Positions 1 through 5,648 of a stretch of DNA of 5,648 nucleotides are shown piece by piece; positions within the stretch are counted from its first letter, which is position 1, and the number at the start of each line of letters is the position of its first letter. Under the pieces are notes generated by a model. It did no database searches and was not told the origin of the DNA. It saw only the letters and a list, made by a program, of their open reading frames with translations. The DNA is taken from assembly GCA_021160245.1 (NCBI GenBank), contig JAGHCW010000058.1, positions 1 to 5,648 on the forward strand, in the 5' to 3' direction. The DNA is from a bacterium (GTDB taxonomy: Bacteria; B130-G9). The translations under genes were made by a program, and so were the position numbers.

Positions 1-498
1 ATCTATGATAAGACTGGAAGTGTTCCAGAGCAACCGCCATCTCCGGTGATTGAAAGCGAGCGGCGACTTTTCTACGTCGCGGTGACGCGCGCCAAGAAAC
101 ATCTCTATATTGGAACGGTTGCCTCTCCGCCAAGCGGGCAGCAGTCCCAGGCAACTGCGCCATTGCCATCCCGTTTCTTGGCAGAGATGGATTTGGAGTC
201 TACCCAGACAGTTATCAGTGCTGGACTCGAGATGTTGCAAAACGGAGATGGACACAAGTTGCTCGCTATCATTGATAAGGGTGAAGGCCGACGTAGCATG
301 ATCCGATATGTGGCGGAAAACTATTTGCGATCGAGTGAGTTATTTGACCCAGTGATGAAATCCATAGAGCAAATGTCTGAAACGGATTTCGAATATCCGT
401 ATGATTATCCGGATCTGGGCCAGGAATCTTCAAAACACAAGGAACTTGAGCCAGTTCCCTGGTCTGACCCCTGGGCTGGCATTGGGGCGCTCAATTAA
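1..498 (+). CDS. UvrD/Rep-family SF1 DNA helicase, C-terminal part (5' end outside window)
   Basis: The frame is open from base 1 to a TAA at 496-498, giving 165 residues, so the start and the ATPase motifs lie upstream of the window. Bases 52-99 encode ESERRLFYVAVTRAKK, which is motif VI of UvrD/Rep/PcrA superfamily 1A helicases; its arginine contacts the ATP gamma-phosphate and couples hydrolysis to movement along single-stranded DNA. It is followed by the usual beta strand HLYIGTV. A tail of roughly 130 residues follows, with an acidic, Tyr/Asp/Pro-rich stretch (FEYPYDYPDLG) near the end. I do not recognise this tail; it does not look like the short basic C-terminus of housekeeping UvrD. 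The GTG at 46 lies inside the conserved domain and is not a credible start. The next gene begins 2 bases downstream, so the two are probably co-translated. The family call is firm; the subfamily (UvrD, Rep, or a GajB-like defence helicase) cannot be decided from the C-terminus. Confidence 0.88.
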   Translation: MYDKTGSVPEQPPSPVIESERRLFYVAVTRAKKHLYIGTVASPPSGQQSQATAPLPSRFLAEMDLESTQTVISAGLEMLQNGDGHKLLAIIDKGEGRRSMIRYVAENYLRSSELFDPVMKSIEQMSETDFEYPYDYPDLGQESSKHKELEPVPWSDPWAGIGALN

Positions 499-503
499 AC
501 ATG
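484..503 (+). promoter_or_regulatory. Tight gene junction: stop-start spacing of 2 bases, probable translational coupling
   Basis: The upstream helicase ends with TAA at 496-498 and the next ATG is at 501-503. The only purine-rich run near it is GGGG at 484-487, about 13 bases upstream of the ATG, which is a poor and distant Shine-Dalgarno match. There is no room for a promoter or terminator between the genes, though a promoter inside the upstream gene is not excluded. This suggests that ribosomes ending the first gene reinitiate on the second and that both proteins come from one mRNA. The downstream frame has an in-frame stop at 465-467, so little extension is possible. The next in-frame ATG (residue 99) would remove conserved sequence, which supports ATG 501. 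Confidence 0.6.
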
Positions 504-1604
504 GACAAGGGGACACCTATTCAGTTGGCTACTCTGGAAACCTGTGAAACATTATTGGCCCCGGGCGGGAAATGGCACATTTCTCCCTACCTCTCGGCCG
601 CTTTCCATGCAGTTGGCGATGCTGGGCTAGCTGCCCGAGCGCCGGTTTATCAATCTGTGGTCCTTGACCTGCTCAAGGGCCACCAACTCCCGCGTGAGCT
701 CACGGTGCTAGACTGGGGTTCTCCCCAAGGCGTGGGTGCCGTGGCTATCTTGGACTTATTGCTGGCCTGGGAAACTGCTTGCGCGTTGTTCGGCATGCCC
801 GATGACATTGACTTGGTACACATCAGCTGGCGCTCTAACGACGGGCTTTCATATTCTTTTCGCTTGCACACAGCCTTTGAAAATGCGGTCAGGTCGCGCG
901 CCGAGACACACCATGACTTTGCGGGACTGGCTGCCGTCGCTGAGTGGACGGCGAACCTGGTTGACAGCTCCCACGACGTCCAAGAAACCCCAAACTTGGT
1001 ACTAATTCCATTCCCTTGGCTGGTCGGCCAGCAACTGGATGCCCTGCTGAACGCATTGCCGACTGGTGCTATCGTCGCCGGTTTGGCCTGGAAGGAACCG
1101 GACGTTCTCCCCAACATGCTTTTTGCTTGGCGGTACAAGCTACTGAAAGATCGTAATGACTTCGTCGCCCTTGGACCGTGCGGCCAGGAATACGGGCGGC
1201 AACTTCCGGACGCCTGCCGCACCTGCATCCACGGACGTCATGAGCCGGTCCATATACCTGGTGCTGAAAACCTTCCTCCGCCGGTGTGGAGTTACACTTC
1301 AGTGATCAAGCAGGCCGATGCTACGGAGGCCGTACCATATTCCCTGGTCTCTACCGGCGACTTGCAGAAGGTGATCGTAGATGAAGTGCATTTGCGTTAC
1401 GTAGGCACCTTTCGTGAGCGAGTACAGCCATCTGACCATCCAGATACGTTCAATGACAATCCGGCCGATACACAGTGGAAAGAGTATCTTAAAGTATGCC
1501 CGGGCCACACCGACACCTCACGACTGGCCTTAGAACGACGGGCGGGTATGCAGGCCCCTCATCTACACTATGGACAATGGCTACACTTGAACGACCTTCA
1601 GCCT
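501..1604 (+). other. Domain: Rsm22/METTL17-like methyltransferase-fold region with candidate Fe-S cysteines (residues 1-368)
   Basis: Seen: R46-A-P-x-Y50 ahead of VLDWGSPQGVG (residues 69-79), which sits where SAM methyltransferases have the glycine loop after a hydrophobic strand ending in Asp. Later come strand LVLIPF, then W197-K-E199-P, R211, GPC227, DAC239-R-T-C242, WSY265, C333-P-G-H, R346-R-A-G349 and GQW360. Known of the family: Rsm22/METTL17 proteins of ribosome assembly have an RxPATY-like helix, VLDxGAGPG, an E-P-G segment followed by an Arg, then APCPH...C...C with a last Cys about 60-90 residues on in a CxPDG-like motif, followed by RR.G and a WGD segment; four cysteines hold an Fe-S cluster. 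The order matches throughout. Differences: the glycine loop is degenerate (GSPQG), so catalysis is doubtful, and the second cysteine of the family is absent, perhaps replaced by C242. Assignment is by motif memory, not by search. Confidence 0.62.
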
Positions 1605-4600
1605 CAGCGCCCCTACTCTTCACGTCCGGATGTATGCACTCTGCGCATTCGCAATGAAGCTGTCTTGCACGCAGCCGTTGGCTCCCCCAACCCCAAAGCG
1701 TTTCTGCCCGCGTACTCCGCTGGCGTTCGTGCTGCGGTTGATGAAGCAGCTCATCGACTGTTCGGTTTTGACACACTATGGCCTTTCCAACACCGAATCC
1801 TTGAGCGCGTTCTGTGCGGTGGCGATATCTTCGCAATTGCGGCGACCGGGGGAGGTAAAAGTGAATGCTATATTCTGCCGGCGTTGCTCTTGCCCGGGAT
1901 CACGGTGGTCGTTTCGCCTCTCAAATCACTGATGCAAGATCAGTACGAGCAGCGCATTCGTGACCGCTATGGGATGGATTACCTGACGACATACATCAAC
2001 GGCGATGTGCCGTTTTATGAGCGGCAGGGCCGTCTGCGCCGTTTGATCCTGGGTCACTTCAAACTGATTTACTTGACACCAGAACAGTTGGAGCGGGGTT
2101 ACGTCCTCGAGGCGTTGCGACAGGCTGAAAAGACGGTCGGTTTCCGCCGTCTGGCTCTAGACGAGGCGCATTGCATAAGCCAGTGGGGGCACGACTTCCG
2201 TCCGAGTTACCTGAACATCATACAGCGGTTACAGGACTATGGACTTCATCCTCAATGCATTGCGTTGACGGCGACTGCCAGCCCCCTGGTGCGCGATGAC
2301 GTATGTAAGGAACTGCGTTTGGACCCCCGCGACATTGACGACGGTGGAGATGTCTTCATTGATGCTGCAAACCGTCCCGAATTGAATCTGGTCGTCCGGC
2401 GCGTGAAGACGACGGAGGAGAAGGCCCGGATAATCGTTGACGCCTTGCGCCAGCTCGATGGTGATGGATCAGCAATTGTTTTTATGCCACATACGGGAGG
2501 AACACTTGAACGGCCTAAGCAAATGGGCGCTCCACAAACAAGTCCTCGGGCTTCGGATGTGGGAATGGTTAGCACTGGTGTGACGCCATTTGCCCACTAT
2601 CTCTCCACCCAGCTAGGCGAAGATGTGGCGATGTATCACGGCAAGATGAATAACGCAATAACCTCAACAGACGACAGCGCTAAAGTGAGTGAGGAAACCG
2701 AAGGCACGATCACCCGCCAAGAAGAGCAGCGGAGCTTCATGAGCGGACGCAAGCGTGTCATGGTAGCGACAAAAGGTTTTGGGATGGGGGTTGACAAACC
2801 CGACATTCGCCTGGTCATTCACCGCTCGCCTCCGGCTAACTTGGAGGCTTATGCTCAAGAGTCCGGGCGAGCAGGCCGAGACGGCAAGTTAGCGACGGTT
2901 TTACTCCTCTACAGCGAAGACCATCCGCGAATAGTGAGTGTGTCTAACGACGTCTTTATTGGGAATTCTGAACTGCAGTCCGACCGCGAGATCCAGCAAT
3001 ACTTCATGGACCAGCGTTACGTCCGACGTCCGGACGTGGCAGCGATGCTGGCTTTTCTCCGCAGTGACTGGCCACAACGTGTCAATGGGGCGCTGTACTT
3101 CACCAATGATCAGGTTATGGGAGTCTTCGACCAATGCGCCACGCAACTGGCTGTTCTCGGCTTGGGTCAGTCCTACGAGTGGCCATCATTTCCTCCAAGG
3201 AAAATCAGCAGCCGTTATGAATCGTCTGATCACAGACACATTCTTGACACAGGCTATCTCTACAACAGGAAGCGTGCTCACATCGGCCGGATTCTGGCCG
3301 TGCTGTTCAACAACCGCCCGACGATTGATGGTCACCTGCTGCCGTTGGTGCGTTCGGTCCACGAGACCGGCACATTGCTGCGCCAGTTTCGACTGTACAA
3401 GCCAGAACGTATTGTTGAGTCACCTGCGCACTTCGGTGAGCGTTTGCGTCAGGCCGATGTCGGTGCAAGTGAGCTCTGCGAGTTGCTGCCCAATGGCAAG
3501 TTCACCGATCTGACGCCGTTGGCCCTGCGTCTGGGCCTGTCGCTACGTGAGACAGCCTCGATGTTGAAAGATATCCGCTACTGCGAAGGCCGCACCAAGA
3601 AAAATGGCCACTGGATTGGCACACTGCTTGACTTCTGGTGGATTGAAGCGCCCCGCTGGGTGACAATCCCGGACGCCTACACCAGCCTAGCGGCCTGGCG
3701 AAATTACGCCGGTGCGTGCAGGCGGGTCAAGCCGCCAAGCGGCAGGCGTTCGCTGGACGACTACTTCCCGTGGCAAGTTGTCAATAGACCATACAGCTGG
3801 GAAGTCGTGCCTGACGCTGGACTCGAATACGCCGACTCGGCCGCCTACCTGGATGCCTTTATGACTCTGCACGACGAGCGCCGTCGCAACGATGAGAACA
3901 ACTTCGCCTATCTGCTTGATCGGTATGCCGGTGGCGAAGATGGGCCTCGCGAATGTCTGCGCTCGCTGGTGCTGGGCTACCTAAAGACCAACGAGGTTGT
4001 GGTAGGAGGCAACTGCCACGGCTGCAGCGTGTGTGTACCGGACTCGCGTTTTGATAAGTATACCGTGGAGCAGCGGAAAGCGGTCGTCGTCCGTTTGCTG
4101 CCCGAGACCATTGATCTGATCTCCCAGATCGAATTGGCGAACCGACGATCTCCTTCTATTGAAACCTTGGAGCACCTATTGAATTCAGTCGCTCAGGAAG
4201 ATACGTTGGGGCGGTCAGGTAGTGCATACCTGGATAGCTGGTTGGTGCGGTTGCTACAAGATGACCCACAGCACCGTGGTGCGCTCTGGGCACGACTATG
4301 GGCTTTCGAGCACCGGACATTAGAGGCAACAGAGCAAGTGATTGTGAGCTTAATTGAGCGACTGACCCGTCTATCGGATTCCCGGCCTGAATGGTTGCGT
4401 TTGCGCATCTTGGTGGACCGATACCGTTCCGATTTCCAGTACCAAAGGTATTATCTTTCCTTGACAGCATGTGCGGCGGAACTGGCGGAGCTTGTAGAGG
4501 AAACTACCAGTGCTATTGAGCTGTGGTCGGACGTCACGGCGCGCACGGACGATGTCACTGAGGGTAGCTCGGAGTTCGACGTGTTGCGCCGTGCCTTAAG

Positions 4601-5648
4601 CCGACTCGTTATATTGTATCGGAAGCGTGGCGCGCCAGGGGATGACCGTACAGTACCCATCCTTGCTTTGCGCCTGGCTCGTATGTCCGGCAGTTCATTG
4701 AAGGCAAGCCACGAAGCTTACCGTTTGGCGATAGCCGACTGGAAGTGGAGGCAAGTCCTGAAGGAAATTGCGGACAGACCTTCTTATCCACAGGCAGTTA
4801 TATCTGCTTGGCTGGAAACTGCGACGGATTCTCAATGGTTAGCTGCCTTAAACTGGTTGCGGCAGAACTGTAGCACTTGGTGGCGTTGGCAACCGAAGAT
4901 CAAGCGAATCGTTGTTCACTACATGACACACGAAATCACACGTCTGTCTCAGGTCGCCGTAGACCTGACCCAACACTCGAACTGGGCCGGGGAAGCAGAG
5001 TGTTGGGAGCAAGTGATTGCTCTGGCCGAGTTATTGGAAGAAGAAGGTACACAGACGGAGGCACTACGACAGTCACTGACCAGGTTATTGGTGCTCTATA
5101 AATCGGATGGACTCCTTGCGAGCGCGGAAAAAGCTGCGAGGGTCGGCCTGCAACTGGTTCACTTCCCAGATATTGCACCGGATATCGTTTGCATGGCCTA
5201 CGAGGAAATCGTGCGCGAGTGGAGCTGGAAGCAAATCGAATCCGAACTTTCCTCACCCGACTGTAATCATCCGGACATTGTCCTGCTGGCCTGGTCAAAG
5301 GTCCCCCGGGAGAAGGATCGAGTATTGGACTGGATGGTACATCATGCTGATCAAGTAGCAGAATGGTCCGATGATTTGTTGGAGACGCTCGAAGGCCAGA
5401 TTGAAGCAAACCTTGAGTGTTCTCCGAAGATGCTGCTCGCTCTTGGCACGGCTCTGGCTGTTCACTCCAATGGGCGAACGTTGGCAGCTTGGTATCTGTT
5501 CCGTGCTCTCTGTGCAGGTGCACGGTTGTCAAAGGGCCAGTTAGAGATCATCGTGGAGCGTGTGACGGAGTTGGACCCCTCGCGATGTCGCGCTTTGCTC
5601 ATCCGGTGTACAGGAATGGCGGAAACGTTGGAGAGGCTCTGGAAAACC
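501..5648 (+). CDS. Giant RecQ-type helicase with Rsm22-like N-terminal domain and long helical C-terminus (3' end outside window)
   Basis: One frame without stops runs for 1716 codons from ATG 501 to the window edge, so the protein is longer than 1716 residues, against about 600 for housekeeping RecQ. Order of parts: residues 1-368, Rsm22/METTL17-like domain; about 415-805, RecQ-type SF2 helicase core; about 806-1150, unassigned, with a possible winged helix near 1005-1051; 1152-1178, RecQ-like zinc cysteines; about 1215-1716, helical. All ATPase residues needed for activity are present (K453, D554, E555, R790, R793), so an active 3'-5' DNA helicase or translocase is expected from family knowledge. 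No HRDC domain is recognisable. The gene directly follows a UvrD-type helicase gene with a 2-base gap, which points to a joint role in DNA processing, possibly phage or mobile-element defence (inference). No frameshift or in-frame stop is visible. The RecQ assignment is firm; the biological role and the missing C-terminus are unknown. Confidence 0.95.
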   Translation, partial: MDKGTPIQLATLETCETLLAPGGKWHISPYLSAAFHAVGDAGLAARAPVYQSVVLDLLKGHQLPRELTVLDWGSPQGVGAVAILDLLLAWETACALFGMPDDIDLVHISWRSNDGLSYSFRLHTAFENAVRSRAETHHDFAGLAAVAEWTANLVDSSHDVQETPNLVLIPFPWLVGQQLDALLNALPTGAIVAGLAWKEPDVLPNMLFAWRYKLLKDRNDFVALGPCGQEYGRQLPDACRTCIHGRHEPVHIPGAENLPPPVWSYTSVIKQADATEAVPYSLVSTGDLQKVIVDEVHLRYVGTFRERVQPSDHPDTFNDNPADTQWKEYLKVCPGHTDTSRLALERRAGMQAPHLHYGQWLHLNDLQPQRPYSSRPDVCTLRIRNEAVLHAAVGSPNPKAFLPAYSAGVRAAVDEAAHRLFGFDTLWPFQHRILERVLCGGDIFAIAATGGGKSECYILPALLLPGITVVVSPLKSLMQDQYEQRIRDRYGMDYLTTYINGDVPFYERQGRLRRLILGHFKLIYLTPEQLERGYVLEALRQAEKTVGFRRLALDEAHCISQWGHDFRPSYLNIIQRLQDYGLHPQCIALTATASPLVRDDVCKELRLDPRDIDDGGDVFIDAANRPELNLVVRRVKTTEEKARIIVDALRQLDGDGSAIVFMPHTGGTLERPKQMGAPQTSPRASDVGMVSTGVTPFAHYLSTQLGEDVAMYHGKMNNAITSTDDSAKVSEETEGTITRQEEQRSFMSGRKRVMVATKGFGMGVDKPDIRLVIHRSPPANLEAYAQESGRAGRDGKLATVLLLYSEDHPRIVSVSNDVFIGNSELQSDREIQQYFMDQRYVRRPDVAAMLAFLRSDWPQRVNGALYFTNDQVMGVFDQCATQLAVLGLGQSYEWPSFPPRKISSRYESSDHRHILDTGYLYNRKRAHIGRILAVLFNNRPTIDGHLLPLVRSVHETGTLLRQFRLYKPERIVESPAHFGERLRQADVGASELCELLPNGKFTDLTPLALRLGLSLRETASMLKDIRYCEGRTKKNGHWIGTLLDFWWIEAPRWVTIPDAYTSLAAWRNYAGACRRVKPPSGRRSLDDYFPWQVVNRPYSWEVVPDAGLEYADSAAYLDAFMTLHDERRRNDENNFAYLLDRYAGGEDGPRECLRSLVLGYLKTNEVVVGGNCHGCSVCVPDSRFDKYTVEQRKAVVVRLLPETIDLISQIELANRRSPSIETLEHLLNSVAQEDTLGRSGSAYLDSWLVRLLQDDPQHRGALWARLWAFEHRTLEATEQVIVSLIERLTRLSDSRPEWLRLRILVDRYRSDFQYQRYYLSLTACAAELAELVEETTSAIELWSDVTARTDDVTEGSSEFDVLRRALSRLVILYRKRGAPGDDRTVPILALRLARMSGSSLKASHEAYRLAIADWKWRQVLKEIADRPSYPQAVISAWLETATDSQWLAALNWLRQNCSTWWRWQPKIKRIVVHYMTHEITRLSQVAVDLTQHSNWAGEAECWEQVIALAELLEEEGTQTEALRQSLTRLLVLYKSDGLLASAEKAARVGLQLVHFPDIAPDIVCMAYEEIVREWSWKQIESELSSPDCNHPDIVLLAWSKVPREKDRVLDWMVHHADQVAEWSDDLLETLEGQIEANLECSPKMLLALGTALAVHSNGRTLAAWYLFRALCAGARLSKGQLEIIVERVTELDPSRCRALLIRCTGMAETLERLWKT
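1752..2912 (+). other. Domain: RecQ-type SF2 helicase core, two RecA lobes (residues about 418-804)
   Basis: Motifs in order: motif 0 with F423 and Q430 (adenine-sensing); motif I TGGGKS 449-454 (Walker A, K453); Ia SPLKSLMQDQ 472-481; motif II DEAHCISQWGHDFRP 554-568, including the aromatic-rich loop specific to RecQ that couples DNA binding to ATP hydrolysis; motif III LTATA 589-593; motif IV IVFMP 659-663; YHG 712-714; motif V ATKGFGMGVDKP 756-767; motif VI QESGRAGRDG 786-795. All are intact. Departures from housekeeping RecQ are AATGGGKSECY in place of the usual PTGGGKSLCY, and two insertions of about 26 and 18 residues in the second lobe. The core is the basis for naming the whole protein. 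Confidence 0.95.
2913..3950 (+). other. Unassigned insertion between RecQ core and zinc site (residues about 805-1150)
   Basis: About 345 residues lie where housekeeping RecQ has only some 50-60 residues between motif VI and its first zinc cysteine. I recognise no family. Residues about 1005-1051 read as helix-turn-helix (LTPLALRLGLSLRETASML) followed by a short KKNGHW hairpin and an aromatic strand (TLLDFWWIEAP). That would suit a winged-helix DNA-binding unit like the one RecQ normally carries after its zinc site. The rest mixes helices with aromatic, Arg-rich loops. The winged-helix idea is a weak inference. Confidence 0.4.
3951..4037 (+). other. Domain: RecQ-like four-cysteine zinc-binding site (residues 1152-1178)
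   Basis: C1152-L-R-S-L-V-L-G-Y-L is followed after 19 intervening residues by C1172-HG-C1175-SV-C1178. Housekeeping RecQ has CRR..LL.YFGE then CGNCDxC, with spacing C-x16-C-x2-C-x2-C. Here the spacing is C-x19-C-x2-C-x2-C, and the helix after the first Cys keeps the same pattern (Arg after CL, hydrophobics, Tyr). This makes a zinc site of the RecQ C-terminal type likely, with a role in stability and DNA binding known for RecQ. Its distance from the core is unusual. Confidence 0.72.
4143..5648 (+). other. Long all-helical C-terminal region, possible TPR/HEAT-like solenoid (residues about 1215-1716, continues)
   Basis: About 500 residues of alternating amphipathic helices rich in Leu, Ala, Glu, Arg and Trp, with few glycines and no catalytic motif that I can see. 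Recurring W-x2-W or W-x-W pairs (DWKWRQV, STWWRWQ, REWSWKQI) and helix pairs such as AECWEQVIALAELLEEEGTQTEALRQ resemble the paired helices of TPR-type repeats, but no clean 34-residue period can be counted by eye. Such regions usually hold partner proteins. The region runs off the window, so its end and any further domain are unknown. Confidence 0.5.

Follow-up and report, generated by a model that had tools for sequence, protein, structure and literature searches.

Does the N-terminal part of the RecQ-type helicase encoded at this locus belong with Rsm22 and METTL17, the mitochondrial and bacterial small-subunit assembly factors, and what would such a domain do on a helicase? The DNA analysed here (the window) is an entire contig of 5,648 bp. 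A preliminary description had placed an Rsm22/METTL17-like domain at 501–1860, directly ahead of RecQ motifs, and the residues that it named are all found at their reported places in the open reading frame (ORF) at 501–5648: R46-A-P-V-Y, VLDWGSPQG (69–77), K198-E199-P, R211, GPC227, C239/C242, C333-P-G, R346-R-A-G and GQW360. The span itself proved too generous, as the Rsm22-like part extends to about residue 385 (nucleotide about 1655) and the remainder consists of a linker and the first RecQ motifs.

Layout and origin of the window

The window carries parts of two genes on the same strand:

1..498, + strand: C-terminal 165 aa of a UvrD/Rep-type superfamily 1 helicase (UvrD_C PF13361, Rep/PcrA/UvrD profiles, ORF)
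501..5648, + strand: fusion ORF of at least 1716 aa, comprising the Rsm22-like domain, RecQ core, RecQ-Ct zinc motif and C-terminal region (ORF list; parts in the same order as in relatives L037–L040 and L062–L064)

The UvrD-type gene is truncated by the contig start, matches PF13361 in Pfam (29.2 bits, above cut-off) and has its stop 2 bases ahead of the fusion ATG. The fusion ORF is still open at the contig end, so that its length is a lower bound.

The tetranucleotide composition of the window has a correlation of 0.60 with that of other pieces from its genome, against 0.84–0.94 for those pieces at similar G+C, although the latter values are inflated because the pieces are themselves part of the reference. 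Horizontal transfer and mis-binning of a short contig cannot be told apart as causes of this atypical composition. The fusion gene was not found in the other three genomes of the phylum (four sampled, including its own), and the closest rows to the window are the Chloroflexota loci L038 and L037, with core identities of 72% and 67% respectively.

Relatives of the fusion

Residues 1–410 of the window protein had no match in Pfam, NCBIfam, PADLOC or PDB sequences. Against a reference profile of 11 true stand-alone Rsm22 proteins, gathered with PF09243, the window domain alone scored 33.5 in hhalign (P 0.00097), collinear over residues 62–230; none of 100 shuffled versions reached this score (best 27.2). 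As a comparison of one sequence with a profile, this match is suggestive, not decisive, and relatives with the same fusion were sought because the window protein alone gave only weak evidence.

Exact peptides of the window domain by itself had no match in viral or genome collections, and tblastn recovered the RecQ core only or nothing in plasmids and the RecQ core only in phages. Since these plain searches failed, a degenerate-pattern search was steered with guessed motifs, using an alignment in which all rows but the window were synthetic and kept only LD[WY]G[SC][PG]Q and GPCGQE[YF]; matches were accepted only if they encoded a relative of the real window residues 1–700. This gave six loci (L037–L042) in metagenome-assembled genomes (MAGs) of Chloroflexi, Actinobacteria and Cyanobacteria, 36–59% identical. 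A family profile built from these was positive in nine of 400 Chloroflexota genomes, seven of them new (L062–L068), and in 386 genomes across the domain it found no fusion besides the window. The total is thus 14 fusion loci, the window and 13 relatives (six by pattern, seven by profile), mostly from Chloroflexota, and the number of genomes with the fusion is at least 14.

Both parts lie in one open frame in L037–L041 and L062–L064, with L038 and L041 truncated by contig ends. Frame breaks or an in-frame stop occur in L042, L065, L066 and L068, and may be assembly errors or decay. In the sister loci L065 (9024–16193) and L068 (211–7382), the fusion gene and a DUF1848 gene are both frameshifted or contain an in-frame TAG.

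In a tree of helicase cores, all 14 rows with the fusion group together in a single clade (support 97/99) relative to the other RecQs sampled, which makes the fusion clade, as far as core sequences can tell, monophyletic among the RecQs tested. The joining of an Rsm22-like domain to RecQ, first proposed from the window alone, is genuine and old.

Some chains of similar appearance were rejected as relatives, having only the helicase core in common with the fusion. One, on the Allochromatium vinosum plasmid pALVIN01 (L015, 4987–10257), is a 1,756-aa chain that combines exonuclease-like, RecQ and UvrD-looking parts and is annotated only as RecQ. The others, from Haliscomenobacter (L036, 852–9025, and L012, 4567–8997), are RecQ-like helicases whose N-terminal region resembles a nuclease; that of L036 is adjoined by VWA, PP2C-like and kinase-like genes resembling the TerY-P triad.

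Identity of the N-terminal domain

501..1655, + strand: Rsm22/METTL17-like domain (residues 1–385), a methyltransferase fold with a C-terminal beta region (profile-profile comparison, AlphaFold2 model, PDB fold matches, Pfam)

A seven-row family profile matched the Rsm22 profile at 99.5% probability (E 2.2e-22) with a score of 171 (the best column shuffle gave 21.8), and a 12-row profile reached 99.8% (E 7e-28) over 387 columns; identity in these alignments is 9–11%. Taken singly, L039, L040 and L062–L065 each reach 99% probability. The window, L037, L038, L041 and L067, in which the SAM core is worn or missing, match weakly or chiefly via Rsm22-specific columns.

Ordinary methyltransferases also match the SAM core of the Rsm22 profile, at 95–97% probability, and it could be argued that the domain joined to RecQ is merely a class I methyltransferase with no specific tie to Rsm22. 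This is scarcely tenable, since the control alignments end at column 259 whereas the fusion domains align past the SAM core, through the Rsm22-specific EPG, PC, WC and SY columns, to about column 340. Pfam likewise finds Rsm22 (PF09243) in three of seven family members at E <= 1 and no other credible family. L039 scores 24.2 bits against PF09243 in a genome scan and 20.5 as a whole protein (cut-off 23 bits); the window has no match.

An AlphaFold2 model from the family alignment (pLDDT 83, pTM 0.83) has a Rossmann-type methyltransferase fold, and its comparison with known structures also speaks against a generic enzyme. When VIA-align was run on the top 1,000 PDB chains from Foldseek, human METTL17 and yeast Rsm22 occupied ranks 1–8 (Z 15.0–16.3, 262–294 residues), with alignments spanning model residues 6–380 (C-terminal limit 364–380); the next fold, Dot1L, reached Z 12.1 over 188 residues of the core only. 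METTL17 also ranked first by Foldseek alone, although the TM-scores were low and ordinary methyltransferases followed closely. No METTL17 chain was found in a sequence-profile search of the PDB with the family profile, and a viral fold library gave nothing beyond generic methyltransferase-like matches.

The N-terminal domain is almost certainly a divergent Rsm22/METTL17-type domain, as first suggested, with its fold resting on prediction and its homology on profiles. Like Rsm22/METTL17 it combines a methyltransferase fold with helices at the N-terminus, EP(G), P-C and W-C/S-Y motifs, a C-terminal beta region, four conserved cysteines (three of them aligned with those of Rsm22) and repeated loss of the SAM motif; it differs in its low identity, its junction to RecQ and its links to DNA-repair-type genes.

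Conserved cysteines and the SAM motif

705..731, + strand: position of SAM-binding motif I (residues 69–77, VLDWGSPQG), degenerate in the window (alignments)
1173..1226, + strand: cysteine loop G225-P-C227-x11-C239-x2-C242, cysteine codons at 1179, 1215 and 1224 (family alignments; C227 and C242 align with Rsm22)
1497..1502, + strand: C333-P334, with the last of the four invariant cysteines (matched to the final cluster cysteine of Rsm22)

C227, C239, C242 and C333 are invariant wherever covered in the 14 loci, including those found by profile. Profile alignment, a check that the preliminary description had proposed together with structure prediction, extends over nearly the whole domain and brings cysteines into register: C227, C242 and C333 fall on the P-C, the W-C-H-F and the last cysteine of Rsm22. 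C239 does not, lying in the same loop as the remaining Rsm22 cysteine but six columns off. Also conserved in the family alignment are W210-[RK]211, P-C227, W263-x-Y265, C333-P, G349, L355 and G358. The residues first listed differ in weight: the cysteines, R211 (as R or K) and C333-P hold across the family, but neither R46 nor the exact GSPQG does. The conservation of G225–E230 in L037–L042 is partly by construction, because the pattern search used guessed motifs. This bias does not affect the loci found by profile, in which P-C is kept and Q-E is variable.

METTL17 holds an Fe4S4 cluster on C333/C339/C347/C404, its cluster residues are better conserved than its SAM motif, and yeast Rsm22 lacks SAM binding (PMC11046306, PMC9892005); [4Fe-4S] binding has been demonstrated in the human and yeast proteins (PMC11046306). 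By homology, and in the absence of metal data, the four cysteines of the fusion are inferred to hold an Fe-S cluster. A zinc site is possible instead, because the cysteine spacing (C-x11-C-x2-C-x90-C) is unlike that of Rsm22 (about C-x5-C-x7-C-x57-C, the second interval also given as x7–9).

The SAM motif is intact in L039, L040 and L062–L066, where it reads D-[IVL]-G-V-G-[TP]-G (VDVGVGTGT-like), and worn in the window (LDWGSPQG), L037, L041, L042 and L067. Aligned with these relatives, the window protein shows the loss of a proper SAM motif.

The helicase core and the C-terminal half

1737..2945, + strand: RecQ helicase core, residues 413–815 (TIGR00614, DEAD and Helicase_C, PDB RecQ/BLM matches)
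1842–1862, + strand: Walker A, ATGGGKS, residues 447–454 (within the RecQ core)
2160–2171, + strand: DEAH (within the RecQ core)
3954..4034, + strand: RecQ-Ct type zinc motif C1152-x19-C-x2-C-x2-C (invariant columns in a five-sequence alignment)
4098..5648, + strand: C-terminal region, poorly conserved, mostly helical, of unknown fold and truncated by the contig end (alignment and model)

The window core passes the RecQ family model TIGR00614 (231.9 bits, cut-off 219.8), as does that of L040 at 239.5 bits, but it does not reach the TIGR01389 equivalog cut-off for housekeeping RecQ orthology (284.6 against 640.2 bits). Motif 0 lies at residues about 420–431 and motif VI reads QESGRAGRDG. The fusion resembles RecQ, BLM and RECQ5 in having all core motifs, the aromatic loop SQWGHDFRP and the RecQ-Ct zinc cysteines, and is unlike them in its Rsm22-like N-terminal domain, second-lobe insert, long C-terminal region, separate clade and the approximately 340 residues between core and zinc motif. 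A model of residues 796–1300 (pLDDT 72) had no PDB match at E <= 0.001, which does not in itself establish a new fold.

Pfam, NCBIfam and PADLOC recognise only the helicase in the window protein, and the nearest defence model is DpdF, the RecQ-like helicase of the 7-deazaguanine (Dpd) defence system (PADLOC family PDLC02864, 295.9 bits for the helicase core). Identity with DpdF was rejected, as the NF041063 equivalog model gave 137.9 bits against a cut-off of 550. No dpd genes are among the neighbours scanned, and we know of no Rsm22-like domain in DpdF.

Gene neighbours and alternative roles

In eight relatives (L039, L040, L062–L066 and L068) a DUF1848 gene lies directly upstream of the fusion gene, touching or overlapping it. 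The adjoining gene encodes uracil-DNA glycosylase in L037, the UvrD-type helicase in the window and a SelA-like protein in L041. The L040 locus (1276–16566) is a defence-like island, with a type IIG/DISARM-type methylase, an Mrr_N protein, DUF1848 and the fusion, followed by a WYL + superfamily 1 helicase. Most other loci are not, and lie among housekeeping genes such as those for transporters, 2-oxoacid dehydrogenase and citrate synthase. In two sister genomes, CHAT-NB-ARC-TPR and NB-ARC-TPR (STAND) genes occur near the fusion (L063, 13792–19407; L062, 126–2744).

These surroundings bear on whether the protein is an anti-phage defence helicase comparable to DpdF, PsyrT, BrxH or DrmA, in which phage nucleic acid would be sensed by the domain and acted on by the helicase or by some unseen partner. 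The patchy distribution across phyla, the atypical composition of the window, the L040 island, the STAND and AAA_21 genes near L062/L063 and the inclusion of an RT-associated DUF1848 (RTasDUF1848) in PADLOC could all be read in this way. The housekeeping setting of most other loci, the low DpdF equivalog score and the absence of any toxin or nuclease domain among those found in the fusion protein argue against it, leaving a defence helicase of this kind possible but unlikely.

DUF1848 proteins bear a radical-SAM-like C-x3-C-x2-C (CxxxCxxC) motif and give a faint radical-SAM match. DUF1848 lies directly upstream of each of the seven fusions whose SAM motif is intact, and no DUF1848 was found genome-wide in the five worn-motif members (window, L037, L041, L042 and L067). 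From this it might be supposed that in the branch linked to DUF1848 the domain is a working methyltransferase, which together with DUF1848 modifies or repairs a nucleic-acid base exposed by RecQ, and that the window protein is a structural remnant left after loss of activity and partner. We regard this as doubtful. The tree gives only two changes and a single independent pair on firm branches, and the co-loss is not significant once kinship is allowed for; with so few independent changes it is no more than a lead. In addition, the MAGs are incomplete and the case for an active site rests on motif I alone.

A continued role on the ribosome (rRNA or 30S), with RecQ recruited to RNA work, would agree with the known function of Rsm22/METTL17 and with the lack of any other Rsm22 above cut-off in the seven genomes tested (those of the window and L037–L042). 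It is nevertheless very improbable: the fusion is rare and patchy (one of 386 domain-wide genomes, nine of 400 from Chloroflexota), the coupled genes are uracil-DNA glycosylase and UvrD, RecQ helicases are DNA helicases, and most bacteria do without Rsm22 altogether (any match in 14 of 98).

Proposed function

With DUF1848 in most relatives, UvrD in the window and uracil-DNA glycosylase in L037, the context points to repair or defence rather than ribosome assembly, and on this context alone we consider such a role probable. Since the family can lose its SAM site but not its cysteines, the domain is most simply read as a nucleic-acid clamp, stabilised by the cluster, that steers the RecQ motor. 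We thus favour, with some reserve and without biochemistry, a RecQ-clade DNA helicase whose N-terminal Rsm22-type domain serves as a cluster-dependent module for gripping nucleic acid. The four cysteines would hold an Fe-S cluster (or possibly zinc); the domain would grip nucleic acid, as METTL17/Rsm22 does on rRNA, with no need for methyl transfer, and would direct the 3'-5' motor of the helicase to a specific structured substrate, either DNA or RNA-DNA, coupling unwinding to cluster-dependent binding. Its role as a clamp or targeting module, where both grip and substrate targeting are inferred, has little better than even support. The domain could still bind protein instead of nucleic acid, and iron or redox sensing is possible, although nothing specific supports it.

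More tentatively, and with somewhat less than even confidence, DUF1848, as a radical-SAM-like Fe-S protein, and the Rsm22-RecQ fusion may form an undescribed two-gene unit for nucleic-acid repair or defence. Its ancestor would have coupled SAM-dependent chemistry to unwinding, and some lines, including that of the window, would have dropped the SAM site and DUF1848 and kept the Fe-S helicase. DUF1848 operons are known as such (PF08902; RTasDUF1848 in PADLOC), but in contrast to RTasDUF1848 no reverse transcriptase is among the fusion neighbours scanned.

Significance

The preliminary description knew of no RecQ-Rsm22 fusion, and none was found described in the open-access literature, where Rsm22 and RecQ occur together only in one unrelated yeast screen; subscription papers and domain-architecture databases were outside this search. 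As far as could be found, no RecQ subfamily distinguished by an Rsm22-like domain has been described. DUF1848, which is uncharacterised, gains a recurrent partner and with it a route to its function.

To our knowledge, the Rsm22/METTL17 fold is otherwise known solely from a stand-alone factor for ribosome assembly that serves as an Fe-S checkpoint for translation. Here a lineage of DNA helicases has acquired it as well, and in this lineage the cysteines are kept and the SAM site is lost in several members, the same pattern as that reported for METTL17. This raises a testable question, namely whether the fold is fundamentally a nucleic-acid clamp stabilised by a cluster, and not an enzyme.
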